Positions 6,510-59,169 of a stretch of 64,000 nt of DNA are shown here, in pieces. Numbering within the stretch: position 1 is the stretch's first letter; each line of letters begins with the position of its first letter. The translations under genes were made by a program, and so were the position numbers. The DNA comes from Candidatus Peregrinibacteria bacterium Gr01-1014_25. Lineage in GTDB: Bacteria; Patescibacteriota; Gracilibacteria; Peribacterales; Peribacteraceae. Location: contig VMFU01000003.1 of assembly GCA_007376205.1 (NCBI GenBank), positions 1 through 64,000 on the forward strand, given 5' to 3'. The notes below the pieces were generated by a model that saw nothing but the letters and a program-made list of their open reading frames with translations, did no database searches and had not been told where the DNA came from.

Positions 6510-7922
6510 TTACTGGGCCATGGCCTTGCGCTGCCTGCGGACGGCGAATGCCGCCAGTCCCGCAATGGCGATCAGCGCGACGACGTCCAGCGCCATGCCG
6601 GTCTGCGGCAGCTGGCGCATCACGCCGATGTTCACGCTGTCCGAACGCTTGTGCATGTCGAGGCCGGCGACATCCGCGCCGCTGACCTGGGCGCTGACGC
6701 CCAGCGACGAGCCATGTGCCGCGCCCGGTTTCACGGCGAGAACGAAGGAGCCCTGCCACGTGTCGCCCGCCGAGAGGCCGGCGATGCGCCAAACCACTTC
6801 GCCCGCCGCGATCTCGTCGGCGTTCATGCCGTCGCTGACCGTGGCGAGGGAGGGATCGGACTGGGCGGTCACGATGAGGTTCTCCAGCGTCTTCCCCGAG
6901 GTGTTGCGCAGGGCGACCGTCATGTTCACCGTGCCTCCCGCCAGGACCTCGGAGCGATCCGAGGACATGCGGAAGATGAGGGAGTTGATATCGGGTTCCG
7001 GTGACGGAGCCGGAGCGGGCGGCGTCGTGCGCGCAACGATCGTGGTTGCGTCCGTGTCCTCCGAGTCGCCTACGGCGACACTGGCGAGCAGCGTCCTGCC
7101 GACCGGCGCGCCGTCGCGGACACCGATGATGTAGACGAATTCCTTGGAGTCATTCGCGGCGATGATGACCTTGCGCCAGCGGACGTTGCGGCCGTCCCAC
7201 GTTCCGCCGTCCGTCGCGGAGAGGAAATCACCGTAGATGGGCATGGAAGCAGACACCTGGACGTTCGTCGCAGCGTGCGCCGACGCGTTGCGGACGACGA
7301 TGTGGTACGTCAGCATCCCGCCGGGGGCGACCTCCGTCTCGCCGTCCGTGATCGTCGCCGTCAGCGCGGGCGGAGGATTGCCGCCGCTGGAGACGATGCT
7401 CATGTCGGTCGTCGACAGGTTCGACGCCGTCAGGCGCGCGATGACCGCGGCGCCGTTGGGCGTGTGGTCGACCACACGGGCGGTGAAGGTGATAACCTTC
7501 TCCTCGCCGGCCTTGAAATCCATGGTCTTCCACCGCAGGTTGCGGCTGTCGAGCACTTCGGCGGAGGCGGGAGGATCGACGAGGTACGTCAGGTTCGAGA
7601 GCGACACGCGCACGGACGACACGAAGGCTTCCGTGAGGTTGTTCTTGATGCGCATCGTGTACGTCATGAGCTCCCCGCGTGCGACGTATTGGTTGCCGTC
7701 GGTCAGGCTCAAGGAGAGATCGACGCGCGTCGGACGCTCAAGGTCGTCGATGCGCGAATCGCAATCCGGATCGGCCGGATAGTCGACGAAACCGTCGCGG
7801 TCGTTGTCCATGGCATCGGCGCACTCGGTGGCGCGGGCAAATGCTGCGGACGTCCACAGCGAGGCATTCGGCGCCATGAGGAGCGCCAGGACGAGGAGGG
7901 GAACCAGACGACGTGTCGCCAT
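6510..7922 (-). CDS. Surface protein: Ca-repeat, DUF11 repeats, LPQTG tail
   Basis: 470 residues. Signal peptide (about 1-28), one Cys-bounded aspartate-rich unit (CADAMDNDRDGFVDYPADPDC), then three DUF11/CARDB-like beta-sandwich repeats (GELMTYTMRIKN, GGMLTYHIVVRN, GGTVNMTVALRN). The end is RQLPQTG, a hydrophobic helix and a basic tail (RRQRKAMAQ): the layout of a sortase substrate of the LPXTG type. No sortase gene is in the window. Paralogues lie at 55792-57237 and 57310-59169. No Shine-Dalgarno; a TATAAA -10 (7954-7959) and a 31-nt pyrimidine-rich stretch precede the ATG. Confidence 0.8.
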   Translation of the reverse strand: MATRRLVPLLVLALLMAPNASLWTSAAFARATECADAMDNDRDGFVDYPADPDCDSRIDDLERPTRVDLSLSLTDGNQYVARGELMTYTMRIKNNLTEAFVSSVRVSLSNLTYLVDPPASAEVLDSRNLRWKTMDFKAGEEKVITFTARVVDHTPNGAAVIARLTASNLSTTDMSIVSSGGNPPPALTATITDGETEVAPGGMLTYHIVVRNASAHAATNVQVSASMPIYGDFLSATDGGTWDGRNVRWRKVIIAANDSKEFVYIIGVRDGAPVGRTLLASVAVGDSEDTDATTIVARTTPPAPAPSPEPDINSLIFRMSSDRSEVLAGGTVNMTVALRNTSGKTLENLIVTAQSDPSLATVSDGMNADEIAAGEVVWRIAGLSAGDTWQGSFVLAVKPGAAHGSSLGVSAQVSGADVAGLDMHKRSDSVNIGVMRQLPQTGMALDVVALIAIAGLAAFAVRRQRKAMAQ

Positions 7923-15404: not shown

Positions 15405-16893
<1,489 letters not shown>

Positions 16894-32252: not shown

Positions 32253-32283
32253 GGGAGGAGGGGGGAAGGGAAGGGAATAGGGA

Positions 32284-32330
32284 TTCGGACAGAGGGATTA
32301 GGGGTCCGGACAGAGGGATTAGGGAATCTG
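32284..32330 (+). repeat. Telomere-like GGGATTAGGG tandem repeat
   Basis: Two copies of CGGACAGAGGGATTAGGG (32286-32303 and 32307-32324) at 21-nt spacing, preceded by AATAGGGATT. The motif recurs at 48275-48314 and, in diverged form, at 55206-55240 and 43187-43212. Runs of GGG could form a G-quadruplex. Confidence 0.7.
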
Positions 32331-36870: not shown

Positions 36871-36891
36871 GCGATTCGGTATACGTTGATC

Positions 36892-37524
36892 ATGCAGCGC
36901 CTGAACACCTGCGTGACGACGATCCTGAAGCCCTACCCGACGTCGCACGAGGCTTTTTTTGCACAGCTTGCCGGTGAAGATCGGTACGATGAAGTGCTGG
37001 ATGAATGGGCCGAGGATGTGCGCGGATGTCTGGAGGAAACCGCGGAGCGCCTGCGCGTGCTCCTCCGTGTCGATGAGGTGGAGCTTCGTCGCCTGCCGTC
37101 AGAAGGCGGGGAGCGGAATGGCGCGGATGTTCTCTCCAGAAAACGGAGCGCCGATGTGCAGAATTCCGATGTCGTCATCGCCGTCGATCCTCCGCCCATC
37201 GTGCTCACGTTCGTCAACGCATGTCTGGATCGCAATCCCATCATGCGCGGCGTGGTGGCCGCGGCAAAGGGCGAACGCATCGATCGCATTGCGAGTGTCC
37301 TGAAATCGCGCCTCGTCCCCGACATCCTCCGACCCGACCGTGCCTTGCCACGTCTCTACGCCATCGCAGGCGACCGCAGGGAGATGCTCCAATCAGTGAT
37401 CGAACGCGTGTTGCGCTTTCCCCACGGCAGCCAGGTGAACTACAAACCGCGGAAAAACGTCATCCATGAACTGACAGAAATGGAGCGTGATCCGGAGGTC
37501 ATCGAGGAAGAATTCCGTTCATAG
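36892..37524 (+). CDS. Hypothetical soluble protein
   Basis: 210 residues with no recognised family. Helical N-terminal half, then VVIAVDPPPIVLTFVNACLDRNPIMRGVVAAAKGERIDRIASVLKSRL. ATG 36892 is fixed by TATACG (36880-36885) ending 6 nt upstream; this rules out the TTG two codons earlier. It follows prmC by 21 nt but appears to have its own promoter. Ends at repeat copy A. Confidence 0.55.
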   Translation: MQRLNTCVTTILKPYPTSHEAFFAQLAGEDRYDEVLDEWAEDVRGCLEETAERLRVLLRVDEVELRRLPSEGGERNGADVLSRKRSADVQNSDVVIAVDPPPIVLTFVNACLDRNPIMRGVVAAAKGERIDRIASVLKSRLVPDILRPDRALPRLYAIAGDRREMLQSVIERVLRFPHGSQVNYKPRKNVIHELTEMERDPEVIEEEFRS

Positions 37525-37536
37525 ACTGAATATATA

Positions 37537-37632
37537 TGCGCGAAAGGGCGGGTCTTGTGGGCCCCGACCTTGAGCGCACCTTTTGAGGAAGGGTGGGTTC
37601 ATGGGAGGGACACCAGGGGTGGCCCTCCCATG
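37537..37632 (+). repeat. 96-bp intergenic repeat, copy A
   Basis: This copy fills the junction between the 36892 gene and the convergent nadK. It ends in a strong hairpin, TGGGAGGG...CCCTCCCA with inner CACC/GGTG. It is about 84% identical, without gaps, to copy B at 40618-40713 in inverted orientation. Confidence 0.8.
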
Positions 37633-37633
37633 T

Positions 37634-38515
37634 CTAAGGCCTCTCCCCCCACTTCAATTTGCGCCGCAGCGTCGCGAAGAAGGTGTCTTCGGCGCGGCGG
37701 AGGAAGCGCGCCTTTCCGGCTGCCGCCGCAACGTGCACACGGTCTCCCCATTGGAGAGGGATGTACTCCTGCCCGTCCAACGTCAACCCCACGGACATGT
37801 CCGACGAGCGTTGTTCGCGTGCGAGGATGGCGATCGTGACGCGGTGATGTTCGGGGATGACGATGGGCTTCTGGCTGAAGGTGTGGGGATTGAGCGGGGT
37901 GAGGATGATGGCCTGCATGCGCGGGTGCACGATCGGGCCGCCCGCCGAGAGCGAGTAGGCTGTGGATCCCGTCGGGGTCGCGATGATGAGGCCGTCCGCG
38001 CGGTAGGTCGTGAGCGGCTCTCCCTGGACGCTCGTTTCCAGATCGAGCAAGCGGGCGAGGGCGCCCTGGGCGATGACCGCCTCATTGAGCGCGTGCCCCT
38101 GGAACACGATCGCTCCTGCACGCTCGGCGCGAATCTCCAGTAGGCTGCGTTCCTCAACGATGCCCTGGCCGCCGAGCAATCGCGGAAGGATGTCCTGCGC
38201 ATCGTCTGCATCGATCTCCGCAAGGAAGCCGACGCCGCCGCGGTTGATGCCAAGAATTGGAATGGAGAGATCGCCGAGGCGCCGCACGGTGCGGAAGATC
38301 GTGCCGTCGCCGCCAAGCACGAGGAGAGTGTCGACGTTCGGCGCGGCGAGGGAGAAGCGCGGGGCGCCGGACGGGCCGATGCCGCGCGGACACGACTCCT
38401 CTACGTGCACGGACAAGCCTAGCGAGTCGAGGACCGCGCAGGTGCTCTGCACTGCGGCATCGTCTGCCGTCAGGGTCGGCTTCACGACCAGGCCGATGCG
38501 GTGCTGCATTTTCAT
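37634..38515 (-). CDS. nadK: NAD kinase
   Basis: 293 residues. LLVLGGDGTIFRTVR (GGDG motif), LGINRGGVGFLAEI, and TPTGSTAYSLSAGGPIVHP. It phosphorylates NAD to NADP. ATG 38515 overlaps the stop of the upstream glycosyltransferase as ATGA, so the two are translationally coupled. Its stop lies 1 nt from repeat copy A. Confidence 0.95.
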   Translation of the reverse strand: MKMQHRIGLVVKPTLTADDAAVQSTCAVLDSLGLSVHVEESCPRGIGPSGAPRFSLAAPNVDTLLVLGGDGTIFRTVRRLGDLSIPILGINRGGVGFLAEIDADDAQDILPRLLGGQGIVEERSLLEIRAERAGAIVFQGHALNEAVIAQGALARLLDLETSVQGEPLTTYRADGLIIATPTGSTAYSLSAGGPIVHPRMQAIILTPLNPHTFSQKPIVIPEHHRVTIAILAREQRSSDMSVGLTLDGQEYIPLQWGDRVHVAAAAGKARFLRRAEDTFFATLRRKLKWGERP

Positions 38516-39621
38516 GGCTGCAGTGGCATACCTGCCCGCGGGGCCGGAGTGCAAGCAGGAGAGGAGGAAATATCACGGAGGAATGCGAGGAAGCGGTCGA
38601 CGGTGCCCTCCCAGGTGAACTGCTGCGCGCGCTGCAAGCCGCGCCGGCGCAGATCGTCCCGCAGGGTGGAGTCCGTCAGCAGCCGCAACAGGCCATCGCG
38701 CACTGACCAGACGCTTTCGGGATCGACGAAGACCGCGGCGTCACCGGCGACCTCGGCGAGGCTGCCGCGGCGGGAACAGAGGACGGGAATGCCCCGCTGC
38801 AGTGCCGTCAGGACGGGCAGGCCGAATCCCTCGTACAGCGACGGGCAGGCCACGACGGCTGCATCGCGGTACAGCTCTTCCATAGCGCTGTCGCTCGAGT
38901 AGCCGGCCCAGCGGACGCCCGCCGTCGATCGCGCAGCGCGGACGATGTTGCGGTCCTGCCAGCCGCGCCCACCCGCGAGCATCAGCGGGAAGCGGCTTCG
39001 CAGCGACTGCGGGAGCGCGTCGTAGGCGCGGATCAGCGTCAGTTGGTTTTTGCGCGGGCACAGTGTTGCTGCGCAGAGAATGTGCGATGGATTTCCCTGC
39101 GCCGCCGCGTCCGGAGCAGCGTGCACGGGGCCCGCGCCAATCGTGCGGACACGTTCCGGAGGAATGTCCGGATACCGTGAGAGCACATCACTGCGCGTCG
39201 CGTCGCTCAACGTGCACAGACCGGCCGCCCGGGATGCTGCTCTGTAGAGCGTCAGCCTCTCGATGCACCGCGCGCGCAGCTCATGCGGCTCCGGGCGGAA
39301 GGCGATGAGATCATGGACGACGGGGATGCACGGCACGCTGCCGGAGAGCAACGCGGGAACGATGTAACTGGTGGGGCTGACGTAGATGCTTCCCGCATGC
39401 CGCCTTGCGTACCGAGCGGCATGGACGTGCCACAGCAGGCCGCGGTACGGCAGAACGTGCGTGCGCACGGACGATGGGAAGGGCGAGCTGTCGCCGCGGC
39501 CGAGGAGCAGCGTCGCGTCGGAGCAGCGGGTGAGGAGCGTGCTGACGAAATGGAGTGTCCAGTGTCCTTTGCCGGTTTTCCGCTCGCCGCAGGCGTCGCG
39601 GACATCAATCAGGAGATGCAC
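38512..39621 (-). CDS. Glycosyltransferase family 4
   Basis: 369 residues, GT-B fold: IPVVHDLIAFRPEPHELR, LCTLSDATRSDVLSRYPDIPPERVRTIGAGP, ILCAATLCPRKNQLTLIRAYDAL and the E-x7-E block CPSLYEGFGLPVLTALQRGIPVLCSRRGSLAEVAGDAAVFVDP. Likely a surface glycan enzyme. GTG 39621 is favoured by TATCCT (39629-39634) 7 nt upstream; a longer frame to 39651 is possible. Followed by nadK with a 4-bp overlap. Confidence 0.85.
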   Translation of the reverse strand: MHLLIDVRDACGERKTGKGHWTLHFVSTLLTRCSDATLLLGRGDSSPFPSSVRTHVLPYRGLLWHVHAARYARRHAGSIYVSPTSYIVPALLSGSVPCIPVVHDLIAFRPEPHELRARCIERLTLYRAASRAAGLCTLSDATRSDVLSRYPDIPPERVRTIGAGPVHAAPDAAAQGNPSHILCAATLCPRKNQLTLIRAYDALPQSLRSRFPLMLAGGRGWQDRNIVRAARSTAGVRWAGYSSDSAMEELYRDAAVVACPSLYEGFGLPVLTALQRGIPVLCSRRGSLAEVAGDAAVFVDPESVWSVRDGLLRLLTDSTLRDDLRRRGLQRAQQFTWEGTVDRFLAFLRDISSSPACTPAPRAGMPLQP

Positions 39622-39686
39622 GGGGACGAGGATACCAGTCCCGCGGCCCATTTGAGGAAAAAGGTCAAAAGCGGTATCGTGGGACG

Positions 39687-40289
39687 GTGAGCGCGCGTTT
39701 CCTCCGTGCTGTGCAGCGGCTCGACCTCGAAGAGCGCATCCTCAATGTTGCGTGTCTGGCCGGTACCATCGGCGTTTTCCTGCCTTGGCTCTCCCGCGAA
39801 TTGGAGGGGCAGATCGTGGTCTTTGCGGGGTATCAGTACCTGACGGGACTGCTCGGGCTTGCCGTGCTGCTCCTCACGCTCTTCGTCCTTGCGGTGACGA
39901 TCGTCCCGCTCTGCGGAGGACCGGAGCTGCTGCGTCACCGTTACCTTCACATTACGCGTTTCATCATCACGGCCGAGGCGAGCGTCCTGTCCCTGTCGGC
40001 ACTTGCCGTGCTTCTGCGCACGAGTTTCGAGTTCTACCGGACGGAAGTGCGTTTCGGTGCATACGTGACGCTCGCGGGGTGCGCCGTCGCGACGCTGTAC
40101 GCATTCTTGCTCTGGCAGCAGCAACGGAAGAGCGAAGCGCAGAGCGTTTTCCATCATCCCGAGAGCGACGTCCCGCTGCCGGAACGTAAAGAGGCCCGCT
40201 TCGCCTCGCCGCCACCGCCACCGCCCCCTCCGCCGCTGCCACCGGAGGAGCATCATGTGCATCGCCAACCGCTTTTCCCGAATGTGTAA
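39687..40289 (+). CDS. Four-helix membrane protein with poly-Pro tail
   Basis: 200 residues. Four membrane helices (about 21-39, 48-73, 89-112, 121-140), then a cytoplasmic tail with nine consecutive prolines and His-rich end. Family not recognised. TATCGT (39675-39680) ends 6 nt before GTG 39687. Its stop overlaps the next start (TAATGA). Confidence 0.6.
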   Translation: MSARFLRAVQRLDLEERILNVACLAGTIGVFLPWLSRELEGQIVVFAGYQYLTGLLGLAVLLLTLFVLAVTIVPLCGGPELLRHRYLHITRFIITAEASVLSLSALAVLLRTSFEFYRTEVRFGAYVTLAGCAVATLYAFLLWQQQRKSEAQSVFHHPESDVPLPERKEARFASPPPPPPPPPLPPEEHHVHRQPLFPNV

Positions 40290-40612
40290 TGACAACCGAT
40301 ACGCCAGCACCGCCGGCAGCCTACCGCGATGAAGATCTTGTGTACGTCGACCCCGAGAAGCGGATCGTCGTCGGCATCGTCCAGTGGAGCAACAGCGGGC
40401 GGCCGAAGTCGCTGCAAATAGAGGGGCAAGCGGACGACGAGCGCGCGGAAAAGCGCGGCCGGCGCCCAAGGCGCCAGCGAGCCTATCCCTGGGGCACCTA
40501 CCGCTCCATGAAACGCATTTATAAGATTGAGGGAAAAGTGATTGATACGCGGCCGATGCTCTCACTCGACGAGGCGATCGAACGCTGCCTGCAGGAGCCG
40601 TTTTGGGATTGA
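40289..40612 (+). CDS. Small basic hypothetical protein
   Basis: 107 residues, coupled to the previous gene by a TAATGA overlap. Charged, no membrane helix; AEKRGRRPRRQRAYPWGTYRSMKRIYKIEGK is a basic stretch that could bind nucleic acid. Family not recognised. Ends just before repeat copy B. Confidence 0.5.
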   Translation: MTTDTPAPPAAYRDEDLVYVDPEKRIVVGIVQWSNSGRPKSLQIEGQADDERAEKRGRRPRRQRAYPWGTYRSMKRIYKIEGKVIDTRPMLSLDEAIERCLQEPFWD

Positions 40613-40617
40613 AAAAT

Positions 40618-40713
40618 CGTGGGAGGGCCACCCCTGGTGTCCCTCCCGCGAACCCACCCTTCCTCACAAGGAGCGCTCAGCACCGGGACCCACAAGGCCC
40701 TGCTCTTCGCGCA
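40618..40713 (-). repeat. 96-bp intergenic repeat, copy B
   Basis: Inverted relative to copy A, of equal length and about 84% identical. It fills the convergent junction between the 40289 gene and fbp. The terminal hairpin (GGGAGGG / CCCTCCC with inner CACC/GGTG) is fully conserved. Confidence 0.8.
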
Positions 40714-40723
40714 AATTCTTTTG

Positions 40724-41656
40724 TTATCCCAGCATTTCCTCGGCGCGTCGCACTTCCTCCTTTGATCCGAGGAGGATGGGTGTGCGCTGCGTGATGGACG
40801 TGATGGGTTTGGCGGTGAGCGGCTGCGTTCCATCCGAGGCTGCACCGCCCGCCTGCTCGGCGAGGTAGGCGAACGGGCCGCATTCGAAAACGAGTCGCAG
40901 CTTCCCCTCGGGGTATTCGCCGCCGCCGACGTTTGCGAAGACGCCCTGCCCCTTGCTGAAAATGTGATGCACGTCGGCGACCATGCATCCGGAGTAGCGC
41001 ATCGTCAGGTGCTCCATCCAGTGTTCTACCAGGGCGCGGTAGCCTTCGTTCTCCCCGACGGCCTTCAGATTGCCGGCGCTGAAGTTCTTCGCGCTGTCGC
41101 CGATGCCAACGTAACCGCGCAGCAGAATGAATTCGCCGACATCGTTGAGGAGGAATGAATGGACACCCTTGCCGGCGGAGTAGGTCAGGATCGTGCGTGG
41201 GCCGTAGAAGACGTAGAGGGCCGCGACCTGCTGCGACGGCTTCCTGCCGAGGATCTCGCTGCCGGCGTAGATGCCGAAAATCGAGCCGATGGCCAGGTTC
41301 GTCTCCACCAGCGAGGATCCGTCGAGCGGGTCATAGACGACGCTGTAGGGAGCAGAGGGAGAGAGCTCAACGATCTCGTCGTGCTCTTCGGATGCCAAGC
41401 TGGCGACGAGGCGGCTCTCGGTGAGGTGCTGCCGGATAATCTTGTCGCTCAAGACGTCCAGCTTCACCTGCTCCTCCCCGAATTGATTCGTGGTGCCGGC
41501 CAGTCCCGCCTCCGTGGTGCGCAAGGCGAACTGGATGTACTTGGCTGCCGTCGCGATGTGGATGATGAGATGGCGCAGGTCGTCGGGCGCCTTGCTCTCG
41601 GCGCGCAAGTGCTCGTTGAGGGAGATGCCCGTCGATGGAGGTTGAGGGGTTTTCAT
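40724..41656 (-). CDS. fbp: Class I fructose-1,6-bisphosphatase
   Basis: 310 residues. VVYDPLDGSSLVETNLAIGSIFGIY (metal site DPLDGSS), LLNDVGEFILLR, RYSGCMVADVHHIFSKGQGVFA and KLRLVFECGPFAYLAEQAGG. It removes the C1 phosphate of fructose-1,6-bisphosphate in gluconeogenesis. ATG overlaps the gap2 stop as ATGA: one operon. Confidence 0.95.
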   Translation of the reverse strand: MKTPQPPSTGISLNEHLRAESKAPDDLRHLIIHIATAAKYIQFALRTTEAGLAGTTNQFGEEQVKLDVLSDKIIRQHLTESRLVASLASEEHDEIVELSPSAPYSVVYDPLDGSSLVETNLAIGSIFGIYAGSEILGRKPSQQVAALYVFYGPRTILTYSAGKGVHSFLLNDVGEFILLRGYVGIGDSAKNFSAGNLKAVGENEGYRALVEHWMEHLTMRYSGCMVADVHHIFSKGQGVFANVGGGEYPEGKLRLVFECGPFAYLAEQAGGAASDGTQPLTAKPITSITQRTPILLGSKEEVRRAEEMLG

Positions 41657-48274: not shown

Positions 48275-48314
48275 CCCTAATCCCTAAGTCCGAATCCCTA
48301 ATCCCTAGAGTCCG
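48275..48314 (-). repeat. Telomere-like TTAGGG repeat
   Basis: On the minus strand: CTAGGGATTAGGG, ATTCGGACTTA, GGGATTAGGG. Four GGG runs in about 30 nt. Shares TAGGGATTCGGAC with the 32284-32330 repeat. Confidence 0.7.
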
Positions 48315-55795: not shown

Positions 55796-57237
55796 GCGAT
55801 GAACCTGCGTATGCTCACGATACCCGCGAGCGCTCCGGTGATCACCGTGGCCGCCAGCGGCAGCATCGGCGAGCCGGACGGCCCGGCATCGCGGCGCGTG
55901 ATCGGCCGGACGAACGACGATGTACCGCCCGCAAATCCGTCAAAGAATCCCGTTTGCGGCAAGCGCTGCAGGATCATGACCTGCGCCGTGTCCGACACCA
56001 CAAGGCCGCGCGTCTCACGTACGCTCGCCGTGTTCGTGACGACGTCGCCGTGGCGCAAGTTTGCGGAGAGCCGCGCGTCGTACGCCAGCGTCTTCTGCTC
56101 GCCGCGGCGGATGGTGCCCAGCGGCCAGCGGACGCCGTGCGTCGTCGCCGTGCCCATCGGTGCGATGTTGAGGATTTTCAGCTCACCGCTCTGGTAGGTG
56201 TCGTCGAGGATCGCGTTCACGAGGTCGCGCGCGCCGGTGTTGGTGACGCGAATCGTGTAACGCACCAGGTCGCCCGGCTGGGCTTCGCGGCGGTCGACGT
56301 CCTTCTGCACGCGGAGGATGTCGTCCTGTGTGCCGCTCGACGTGCTGTCGTACTCTTCGTTGTCGTCCCGAGACGTGCAGCCGGGATCATCGGGGTAGTC
56401 CACGTAGCCGTCCTTGTCGTTGTCCTTGCCGTCGCGGCAAGCCGTGCGGCGCGTCAAGCGCTCGGAGTCCTCCGTGCGGTCCGTCCGGTTCGCGCAGCCC
56501 AAGTCATCGGGGTAGTCGATGTGGCTGTCGCCGTCGTTGTCGCGTCCGTCGTAGCACTGGAATTGCCGCTCCTTCGGATCCGTGTCCTCGGTGTCGTCGG
56601 TGCGAGAGTCGCATCCTTCGTCATCGGGGAAGTCCGTGTCGCCGTCGCGGTCGTTGTCGAAGTCATCGTCGCACTCGAAGCGATCGCCCACGTCGGGATC
56701 CTCGGAATCGTCGCTGCGCGAGGTGCATCCGGCGTCCTCGGGATAGTCGATGTCGCCGTCGCGGTCGTTGTCGCGACCGTCGCTGCACTCGCGGTCATCG
56801 TCTACGCGGACACGCGTCGTGTCCTCGGCGATAGTGCCCGTGCTGTCGATGCGCGCGGTGTTGCGGATGATCGTGTTGTCGCGCAGGTCGGTTCGCACGC
56901 GCACCCAGAGCAGAAGCTCGCGGCTGTTGTTGCGGGCGACGGTGATGTTGCGCCACAGGACTTCGTTTCCGCTGCGGCTGCCGCCGTCCGAGGCCGATAC
57001 GTAATCCGTGCTCGTCGGGATGAAGTCCCGCACCGTGACCGTTTGCGCGGTGTCCGAAGTGTTCTGGATGCGGATGATGTAGCGCAGCGTGTCTCCCTCG
57101 GCCGTCTCAGACGTGTTGTCCGTCTTGCTGATCCGCAGCGAGGAGCTTTGCGCAGAGGCGGAGGGAGATGTCGCGAGGGACAGTGCCGCCGCGGTGGCGA
57201 TCAGCAGGCCGGCGAGAGAGAGGCGGAGGTGTCGCAC
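55792..57237 (-). CDS. Surface protein: four Ca-repeats, DUF11, LPQTG
   Basis: 481 residues. Signal peptide (about 1-29), a DUF11 domain (GDTLRYIIRIQNTSDTAQTVTV), four tandem units of the type CxDGxDNDxDGxxDYPxDxGCxSRxDxxE (about 145-290), a second DUF11 domain (GDLVRYTIRVTNTGARDLVN) and the tail LQRLPQTG. Unlike its paralogues, about 35 residues (FFDGFAGGTSSFVRPITRR and on) separate LPQTG from the final membrane helix. The Asp-rich units resemble EF-hand or thrombospondin type 3 loops and probably bind calcium. GTG start; TACAAT (57272-57277) and a C-rich 34-nt leader. Confidence 0.8.
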   Translation of the reverse strand: MRHLRLSLAGLLIATAAALSLATSPSASAQSSSLRISKTDNTSETAEGDTLRYIIRIQNTSDTAQTVTVRDFIPTSTDYVSASDGGSRSGNEVLWRNITVARNNSRELLLWVRVRTDLRDNTIIRNTARIDSTGTIAEDTTRVRVDDDRECSDGRDNDRDGDIDYPEDAGCTSRSDDSEDPDVGDRFECDDDFDNDRDGDTDFPDDEGCDSRTDDTEDTDPKERQFQCYDGRDNDGDSHIDYPDDLGCANRTDRTEDSERLTRRTACRDGKDNDKDGYVDYPDDPGCTSRDDNEEYDSTSSGTQDDILRVQKDVDRREAQPGDLVRYTIRVTNTGARDLVNAILDDTYQSGELKILNIAPMGTATTHGVRWPLGTIRRGEQKTLAYDARLSANLRHGDVVTNTASVRETRGLVVSDTAQVMILQRLPQTGFFDGFAGGTSSFVRPITRRDAGPSGSPMLPLAATVITGALAGIVSIRRFIA

Positions 57238-57309: not shown

Positions 57310-59169
57310 TTACAGCAACAGTCTGCGACGCAGAAATCCCGCGCCGGCGATGCCCGTGCCCGTTCCCAGGAGGGACGTCAGGGCCATGGCGATCAATCCC
57401 GCGGGGGCGCCGGTCGTCGGCATTTGGCGCATGACGCCGACGGAGGTCGTGTACATGCGGTCGCCTGCCGCAATGTTCACCGTGTCGCCGCCGCTGATGA
57501 CAGCGATGTTTGACGTGCGCAGGCCATGGGGCGCTCCGTCGCGGACGAGCAGCGTGTAGTGAGTCGTCCATTGCTGCCCGGGACCGATGCGCGGCAGACT
57601 CCAGACGATGTTGCCTTCCGTGCGCAACGCGCCGTCGTCGCTGGAGACGTAGCGGAGCGCGGAAGCGTCGTAGCGCACGGAGACCGTGGCGCCGCCGACG
57701 TTGCTATTCGACCGGTTCGTCACCGTGACGGTGTAGCGGATGCGTGTTCCCGGAATGGCTTCGCTGCGGTCGGCTTCCTGCGTGATGACGAGGCCGTGGC
57801 CGGAGACGCCGATGCGCGGCATCGGAGCCTTGGGGGCGACGGAGGACGTCTGGCGGACGCTGCGGACGGGCTGATACGTTTCATCGCTGTGAGCGACGAT
57901 CGCCGTGGTGTCCATGTCCGTCGGGCCGCGGACGCTCTCCACGCGGACGCCGCCGAGCATCTGGCCTCCGATGTCCGCGTCGCGTCGGACGCGAACGGTG
58001 TAGGAGAACGTGCGGACGCCGTAGGCGGCGATTTCCTGGCCTTCCCAGCGGATGTTCGTGCCGTCCCAGTACCCGCCCTGATCCGCGGAGAGGAATTCGG
58101 CGAATGTCGAGACGGAGGCAGAAATCACGGGGTCGACCGCCGCGTAGGGCGAGCGGTTGCGGACGTGGATCGAGTACGTGAGCTCCTGGCCGCGCTCCGC
58201 GGTCGTGCGGTAGTCCGTAATCGAAACGCTGTACTCGTTCGGCGGCGTGCCGTGAGCGATCGTCGTGCGGTCGGTGGCGGACGCCGGTCCGGCCTGCACG
58301 CGGGTGAAGATGCTGACGTTCTCATGCGTGCGGCGCAGCGTGCGCAACTTGAAGTGGTACGTCTTGCGCTCGTTGGGCGAGAACGTCTGGTCCTGCCAGA
58401 TGATGTGCTCGCGGTTGATCGTCGGGCCGCCCTCGGCCGATTCGAACGCGGTTGCGGTCGGCAGCGTGACGCGGACGGGGATCGTGTGCGAGACGTCGTC
58501 GAGGTTGCGGACGGTCACGGTGTAGCTCAAGACCTGATCCGGCTGGGCGAACGTCTGCTCGTCGGTGATGCGCGCGGAGAAGCGCATGATGAGCTGCTCC
58601 GGCGTGACCGGTCCGCTGATCATCGTCGTGTCGGTCGCACTGACGCCCTCGGAGACCACGCGGGCCACCATCAGCTTGTCGGCGTCGGCCGTGGGATTCA
58701 CGTGCACTTGCACGGTCAGACGCGTGACCTGGCCTCGCTCAACGCTGATCCTGCGCCACGTCACCGTGCCATCGCGATAGCTCCCGCCCTGATCCGCTCC
58801 GACCATACTGGTCTGGGAGGGCAGGTGGAAATAGACGTCGACATCGCGGCGCTCCTCGCGCTGCTGGCGCAGGCGGATCACGTAGATCACGCTGTCGCCG
58901 CGGCGCACCCGCTCCTTCCCGTCGGTGATACTGACGAACAGCGCCTGGCTCTCCGGCCCTTCTGCGACATCATCCAGCGATGCGCAATCGGCATCCTCCG
59001 GATAGTCGAATTTGCCGTCATCATCGTTATCGCGGCCGTCGGAGCACTGCGTGTGCATCGCGATGCCGGGAGCAACGGAGAGGAGGCCGTTGGCCAATCC
59101 GCTCGCTGCGAGCAGCCCGATGCTCACGATGCCTGCCAGGACCTTGGGAGAAATGGCGATTCTGCTCAC
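57310..59169 (-). CDS. Surface protein: Ca-repeat, DUF11 repeats, MPTTG tail
   Basis: 619 residues. Signal segment (about 1-35), one unit CSDGRDNDDDGKFDYPEDADC, then four DUF11-like beta-sandwich repeats (GDSVIYVIRLRQ, DQVLSYTVTVRNL, GQELTYSIHVRN, GTRIRYTVTVTN). It ends RQMPTTG, a hydrophobic stretch and RRRLLL, an LPXTG-like sorting tail with Met for Leu. GTG start. The 31-nt leader matches that of the 6510-7922 paralogue in length and in blocks (TCTCCTTTTT). Confidence 0.8.
   Translation of the reverse strand: MSRIAISPKVLAGIVSIGLLAASGLANGLLSVAPGIAMHTQCSDGRDNDDDGKFDYPEDADCASLDDVAEGPESQALFVSITDGKERVRRGDSVIYVIRLRQQREERRDVDVYFHLPSQTSMVGADQGGSYRDGTVTWRRISVERGQVTRLTVQVHVNPTADADKLMVARVVSEGVSATDTTMISGPVTPEQLIMRFSARITDEQTFAQPDQVLSYTVTVRNLDDVSHTIPVRVTLPTATAFESAEGGPTINREHIIWQDQTFSPNERKTYHFKLRTLRRTHENVSIFTRVQAGPASATDRTTIAHGTPPNEYSVSITDYRTTAERGQELTYSIHVRNRSPYAAVDPVISASVSTFAEFLSADQGGYWDGTNIRWEGQEIAAYGVRTFSYTVRVRRDADIGGQMLGGVRVESVRGPTDMDTTAIVAHSDETYQPVRSVRQTSSVAPKAPMPRIGVSGHGLVITQEADRSEAIPGTRIRYTVTVTNRSNSNVGGATVSVRYDASALRYVSSDDGALRTEGNIVWSLPRIGPGQQWTTHYTLLVRDGAPHGLRTSNIAVISGGDTVNIAAGDRMYTTSVGVMRQMPTTGAPAGLIAMALTSLLGTGTGIAGAGFLRRRLLL

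Follow-up and report, generated by a model that had tools for sequence, protein, structure and literature searches.

Intrastrand triplexes of the antiparallel purine motif are built from GGC, AAT and TAT triads and belong to class I when third strand, purine strand and pyrimidine strand follow each other in this order on one strand (Holder et al., 2015, PMC4666352); by the definition given there, the stems measure 6-15 and may contain no more than one mismatch. The Escherichia coli repeat BoxC is of class II (pyrimidine-purine-third strand), is 34-37 nt long and nearly invariant, and lacks both a preferred distance to open reading frames (ORFs) and a strand bias (PMC4666352). Repetitive extragenic palindromes (REPs) of E. 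coli are often located 1-20 nt from the 3' end of the nearest ORF (PMC12306157). Here, we describe a dispersed non-coding element of approximately 100 nt from Candidatus Peribacteraceae, bacteria of the Candidate Phyla Radiation (CPR). Two of its members, copies A and B, are found in a stretch of 64,000 nt (the window; positions 1-64,000 of contig VMFU01000003.1) of Candidatus Peregrinibacteria bacterium Gr01-1014_25 (GCA_007376205.1). From the comparison of its copies, we consider it probable that selection favours folding of one strand of the element, in the orientation of copy A, as single-stranded DNA with a class I triplex, and that the element would act as a barrier where transcripts end.

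On the + strand (copy A orientation), the element consists of an A-tract, a hairpin P1, a linker with a purine-rich tract (tract 1) and a hairpin H1, the purine strand of which is termed tract 2. In the window, these parts and the two genes adjoining H1 are as follows:

37535-37638, + strand: copy A, whole element (covariance-model match, 93.2 bits)
37525-37537, + strand: copy A, A/T-rich 5' flank at the position of the A-tract, degenerate (ACTGAATATATAT)
37538-37577, + strand: copy A, hairpin P1, which has an internal loop and carries GGGTCTTGTGGGCCCC as its apical motif
37591-37597, + strand: copy A, tract 1 (GGGTGGG), putative third strand in reverse-Hoogsteen pairing
37600-37632, + strand: copy A, hairpin H1; the stop codon of nadK lies 1 nt from its 3' end
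37603-37609, + strand: copy A, tract 2 (GGGAGGG), purine strand of the proposed triplex
37623-37629, + strand: copy A, CCCTCCC, pyrimidine strand of H1
40612-40715, - strand: copy B, whole element (covariance-model match, 75.9 bits)
40713-40725, - strand: copy B, 5' flank rich in A (reading AACAAAAGAATTT on the strand of the element), a putative U-rich tail for gene 40289-40612
40673-40712, - strand: copy B, hairpin P1
40653-40659, - strand: copy B, tract 1 (GGGTGGG), proposed third strand
40618-40650, - strand: copy B, hairpin H1; the gene 40289-40612 has its stop codon 5 nt away
40641-40647, - strand: copy B, tract 2 (GGGAGGG), purine strand
40621-40627, - strand: copy B, CCCTCCC, pyrimidine strand of H1
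37634-38515, - strand: nadK-like gene (presumably nadK, judging from its GGDGT motif), stop codon abutting H1 of copy A
40289-40612, + strand: small gene, stop codon abutting H1 of copy B

Mutual information across 110 copies revealed that, besides the base pairs, the columns of tract 1 track the pairs of H1 in mirror order. When tract 1 is laid antiparallel to the purine strand of H1, 791 of 826 cells (95.8%) in 118 copies combine G with G, A with A or T with A. A G of tract 1 is thus found opposite a G-C pair and an A or T opposite an A-T pair, with T facing A 21 times and G 3 times. At least six of the seven third-strand triads are present in 112 of the 118 copies and all seven in 91, while alternative registers fit worse (35-70% of the cells for other mirror registers and 26-79% for direct ones). 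Among the 33 distinct combinations of tract 1 and tract 2, 206 of 231 cells follow the code, compared with 150.4±6.1 (maximum 172) in 5000 shuffles. The code is also present inside single genomes (71/77 in G027 and 94/105 in G082, reached in 0 of 10000 shuffles each; labels with G, C and L denote genomes, contigs and loci of our data set). Single triads change as units, for example in GGGTGAG/GAGAGGG/CTTTCCC (L093), GAGTGGG/GGGAGAG/CCTTCTC (L030) and GGATGGG/GGGAAGG/CCCTTCC (L154), and two distant relatives from other families of the class have kept the mirror with different letters (7/8 each).

The covariation of tract 1 and H1 fits the code of an antiparallel purine-motif class I triplex, and the comparative support for this fold is strong. 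Tract 1, tract 2 and the 3' strand of H1 follow each other in class I order, the putative third strand is antiparallel, and the triads are the same GGC, AAT and TAT as in the published motif. The second loop measures 13 nt and is itself a hairpin, whereas the published finder allows 1-6 nt (PMC4666352). Because the copies have diverged, the triad code can be read from sequence variation, which argues for selection on the triplex itself. Template switching yields inverted and not mirror repeats, and mutation bias is therefore an unlikely source of the mirror code. Two further pairings were considered and rejected. If tract 1 paired with the H1 pyrimidine strand, as in a switch, the direct-repeat register with its poorer fit would be required, and a pyrimidine triplex of the complementary strand scores 5.97 versus 6.70 of 7, since the T of tract 1 faces A. 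The motif GGGTGGGN5GGGAGGG might also point to a G-quadruplex element, as four G-runs are present in 61 of the 118 copies. However, no canonical G-quadruplex is possible in the other 57, of which 53 still hold at least six of seven triads, among them types free of G-runs such as AAGAGAG/GAGAGAA, so that this explanation is largely refuted and highly improbable. An earlier reading of the window, hereafter the original prediction, had missed the triplex code in tract 1 and H1, which is the main feature of the two copies, and had overlooked the internal structure of the element together with its eight-member family in this genome.

Compensatory changes occur in 22 of the 28 base pairs of P1 and H1 (67 copies), with 315 doubly changed cells versus 101.9±7.5 in shuffles, and this signal is destroyed when the partners are slid against each other. 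P1 is built from an outer helix, an internal loop of GA / GGA (tandem GA), an inner helix and a variable tip. The letters of the outer helix change together as sets (GCGC/GCGC, GTCC/GGAC, TGCC/GGCA, CGGC/GCCG and TCGC/GCGA). Tract 1 and H1 form the best conserved part of the element. The folding z-scores as single-stranded DNA, with base pairs only modelled, are -5.8 for copy A and -3.4 for copy B. The loops of H1 are mostly GNA or GNNA (GTA, GCA, GCTA, GTTA) and the tips of P1 are pyrimidine triloops in many copies; loops of these types are favourable in DNA, where GNA triloops are very stable. In some cases, the loop of P1 or H1 harbours another palindrome (CGCCCGTACCGAACG...) while the stems are still paired, as seen at G027:329687-329833 (L108) and near G027:819760 (the orthologue of L164).

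We infer that the folded strand is DNA, as purine-motif triplexes, those of seven triads included, are reported not to form in RNA (PMC4666352). The alternative is a functional RNA, namely a transcript of the + strand (a small RNA or a 3' untranslated region) folding into two hairpins with base triples. RNA tertiary triples do exist, and the + strand is favoured by the compensatory changes and by G.U pairs (51 G.U versus 9 A.C outside the first column). Against an RNA fold, the A-rich box ends 2-4 nt before P1 and is too near to serve as its promoter, a promoter-like site was not found at copies A and B, and at 39 of 102 copies the neighbouring genes do not transcribe the + strand. Rfam 15 likewise gave no match at the gathering threshold within the element, with two unrelated sub-threshold matches at E up to 1. 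We therefore consider an RNA fold unlikely, although less so than the other alternatives treated here. A promoter of the element's own in the A/T-rich flank was rejected for the same closeness to P1. A T-box leader, which the sequence AGGGTGG.. resembles, was rejected for the antisense placement at gene ends and the lack of an Rfam match.

Gene calls by a hexamer model trained on the DNA of the window place both copies at convergent junctions, in agreement with the original prediction. Copy A is flanked by genes 36886-37524 (+) and nadK 37634-38515 (-), and copy B by genes 40289-40612 (+) and 40724-41656 (-). The predicted closeness of a strong terminal hairpin to gene 3' ends was also confirmed, with H1 ending 1 nt from the nadK stop codon in copy A and starting 5 nt beyond the stop codon of 40289-40612 in copy B. 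The P1 ends lie 13 nt (copy A) and 11 nt (copy B) from the stop codons on the opposite side. As a rule for the family, placement at convergent junctions does not hold: 36 of 102 copies are in convergent context, 39 are tandem-opposite, 13 tandem-same and 8 divergent, and it is a single gene whose 3' end H1 abuts. A gene is present on the H1 side of 98 copies; it runs into the element in 77 cases and ends within 10 nt in 53, compared with 3 of 99 on the P1 side (Fisher p = 4e-17). The placement rule, as read from these contexts, is that the H1 end is located at the 3' end of an incoming gene with fixed polarity. Transfer RNA (tRNA) genes adjoin H1 as well, mostly by their 3' ends. A smaller group of genes ends near 50 nt from the element, and in three of those inspected the gap contains a hairpin and a T-run. 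A replication-strand bias in G027 (19 versus 10) was not significant. At the level of sequence comparison, we regard the family, the covarying hairpins, the triple code in mirror register and the polar position of H1 at a gene's 3' end as established.

An A-tract precedes P1 in 62% of the copies, compared with 2% of random 12-mers, and would appear as a U-tract behind a GC hairpin in the transcript of the gene on the H1 side. A one-way terminator for this gene is thus plausible. The two-way terminator that had been postulated for the pair was not corroborated, given that the A-tract is found on the P1 side only and that a simple terminator scan was negative at both copies (its loop limit of 8 excludes P1). 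One might ask whether the element is simply an ordinary intrinsic terminator family spread by copying, in which the G-rich part is incidental. The exact adjacency to stop codons and tRNA 3' ends and the U-tract behind the GC hairpin would agree with this. However, an intrinsic terminator requires only P1 and the U-tract, whereas tract 1 and H1 are best conserved and obey the triple code, the canonical scan was negative at copies A and B, and the conserved fold belongs to the strand that is antisense to the gene to be terminated. We hold this explanation to be improbable, slightly more so than the RNA fold.

Searches of the genome for further copies, as the original prediction had proposed, gave a total of eight in the source genome (G000; 1.12 Mb, 12 contigs). 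Seven were found by BLAST (copy B against copy A with E = 3.8e-25, plus five more), and the eighth (C12:60411-60516) by a covariance model. Of the 74 family genomes, 50 are matched by covariance model R1, so that the assumption of a dispersed, REP-like element or miniature inverted-repeat transposable element (MITE) was well founded. The single-contig genome G027 carries 29 copies and G016 and G082 about 50 each, counts of model R1 to which the palindromic part may have added a few matches in antisense. A 28-letter core pattern matched 44 stretches in 84,980 species representatives, almost all of them from records whose titles name Peribacteria, Peribacteraceae or Peregrinibacteria; beyond the family, there are only a few weak matches. 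The core pattern had no match among the viral sequences of IMG/VR, and no published description of the element was found in the searched literature (open-licence papers only). In a scan of the phylum, the apical motif of P1 was confined to this class. The P1 tip motif GGGTCTYGYGGGYCCC (L140, L177, L178 and P1 of many copies) is found in a few genomes of the class's other families, there partly outside recognizable elements, and is absent from the listed genomes of other classes. Contig C20 of G036, from another family, carries two divergent relatives in inverted orientation, one at the very start of the contig (1-85, +, L143) and the other near its far end (16156-16242, -, L141).

Copies A and B form the longest inverted repeat of the window (37534-37630 / 40620-40716). 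With arms of 97 nt that are 85% complementary and 2989 nt apart, they are equal-sized, similar and oppositely oriented, as originally described. Inversion of the 3-kb segment between them, also proposed at that time, is not supported. In most relatives in which a single contig contains both genes, the distance from nadK to the neighbour gene of copy B is a few kb and the two share a strand, as they do here (G014 is the one exception), which indicates that the segment is in its usual orientation. Both sites are free of the element in the relatives examined, and copies A and B therefore look like lineage-specific gains.

Comparison of G082 and G027 revealed both empty sites and orthologous occupied sites. 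At the orthologous site G027:619259, the element is nearly unchanged (1 difference in 110) with diverged flanks, while at other orthologous occupied sites within one genus the letters have changed and the fold was kept. Repeat hairpins resembling AGGGATTAGGG units occupy sites in G027 where G082 carries the element, and an intergenic inverted pair of AGGGATTAGGG-like units is present in the window (32272-32324 and 48275-48306). Inspection by eye of the empty sites, whose flanks are diverged, showed no target-site duplication, and a terminal inverted repeat joining the two ends of the element is lacking. Dispersed extragenic palindromes with a single-strand DNA fold that are present in one genus and absent in another would also agree with a REP/REPIN or an IS200/IS605-derived MITE moved by a Y1 transposase (TnpA or REP-associated tyrosine transposase, RAYT). 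However, Y1_Tnp (PF01797) is absent from G000, G012, G027 (single contig), G096, G066 and G028, which hold 5-29 copies each, or 8-29 without G028, while G025 has 10 Y1 genes and no element. Near-identical copies are missing, and the best pairs within a genome are only about 0.90 alike, which argues against a recent burst. We consider such a transposase-driven origin very unlikely. An integron attC site was rejected: the placement after stop codons is similar, but by eye the attC consensus is not seen and the copies are not arrayed. Another copy of G000 on contig C1 (L022:3149-3253) adjoins the start of a methionyl-tRNA-synthetase-like gene. On its other side, a partial, imperfect copy of the same gene's first codons is found, possibly a trace of the copy's arrival. 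Elsewhere in the window, tandem repeats of about 117 nt (56351-56806, also 7735-7842 and 58977-59048) resemble Asp-rich calcium-binding repeats when read on the reverse strand.

We propose that tract 1 (here GGGTGGG) would lie antiparallel on the H1 purine strand GGGAGGG, held by reverse-Hoogsteen pairs in G·G.C, A·A.T and T·A.T triads. P1 and the U-tract behind it may work as an intrinsic terminator in the transcript of the gene on the H1 side. For a polymerase that enters the gene's end from the opposite direction, the folded G-rich strand may be an obstacle. The element would then be a polar punctuation mark, with a terminator on one side and a polymerase barrier on the other, and its copies may have been gained by a route other than RAYT that was not recently active. 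Both this role at transcript ends and this mode of spread are inferred. Several observations weigh against the proposed DNA triplex and its function. E. coli BoxC forms triplexes in vitro and no stable triplex in vivo, and in earlier work it had no terminator activity (PMC4666352). RNA is excluded through literature only, and the G.U excess of the + strand is partly due to one column. The copies are related, and the shuffle tests therefore overstate significance. Only 2 nt ahead of the H1 base are available for the turn of the third strand, a tight fit if the lowest pairs stay closed. In copies away from stop codons, the A-tract has the same strength and therefore belongs to the element itself, and the negative terminator scan at copies A and B counts on the same side.

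On whether intrastrand DNA triplexes form and matter in living bacteria, BoxC was positive in vitro and gave no stable signal in vivo (PMC4666352). For the element described here, a concrete role that can be tested follows from its fixed polarity at the ends of genes and tRNAs, and with it natural bacterial DNA triplexes become testable. If the fold is specific to DNA, it would be among the few cases in which genomes reveal natural selection acting on a DNA fold of three strands. We put forward only tentatively, as somewhat less than an even chance, that CPR bacteria possess a naturally occurring fold of single-stranded DNA whose triple helix has been maintained in evolution and which provides polar, DNA-level punctuation at transcript ends.

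Among known systems, BoxC, potential intrastrand triplex (PIT) and TM(ECO) sequences share with the element that they are short, intergenic, dispersed repeats of which one strand is able to form a purine-motif triplex with the same triads, and that they have no tie to known transposons. Their class II consensus CCCTCNCCC-N3-6-GGGNGAGGG-N3-GGGNGAGGG does not describe the copies studied here, which differ in letters and have class I strand order. Unlike BoxC, the element is about 100 nt long, has an additional covarying hairpin P1, strongly diverged copies and covarying triads, is placed with fixed polarity at gene and tRNA ends, and is essentially limited to Peribacteraceae. REPs, bacterial interspersed mosaic elements (BIMEs) and REPINs are likewise extragenic palindromes at gene 3' ends, but the element differs from these in its length of about 100 nt, in its triplex code and in the lack of RAYT in several copy-rich genomes; the REP tetranucleotide and BIME arrays are not seen. 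Seen from the adjoining gene, a GC hairpin (P1) followed by a U-rich tail resembles an intrinsic terminator, from which the element departs in that P1 is separated from the stop codon by an extra hairpin and a conserved stretch rich in C, and in that the other strand carries the conserved fold. With H-DNA, it has in common mirror-symmetric purine tracts and a third strand. While H-DNA takes the pyrimidines of the opposite strand, H1 is here an inverted repeat as well, so that a single strand supplies all three. The element adds a further form to the known intrastrand triplex repeats and stands outside the BoxC, REP/RAYT and Rfam families.

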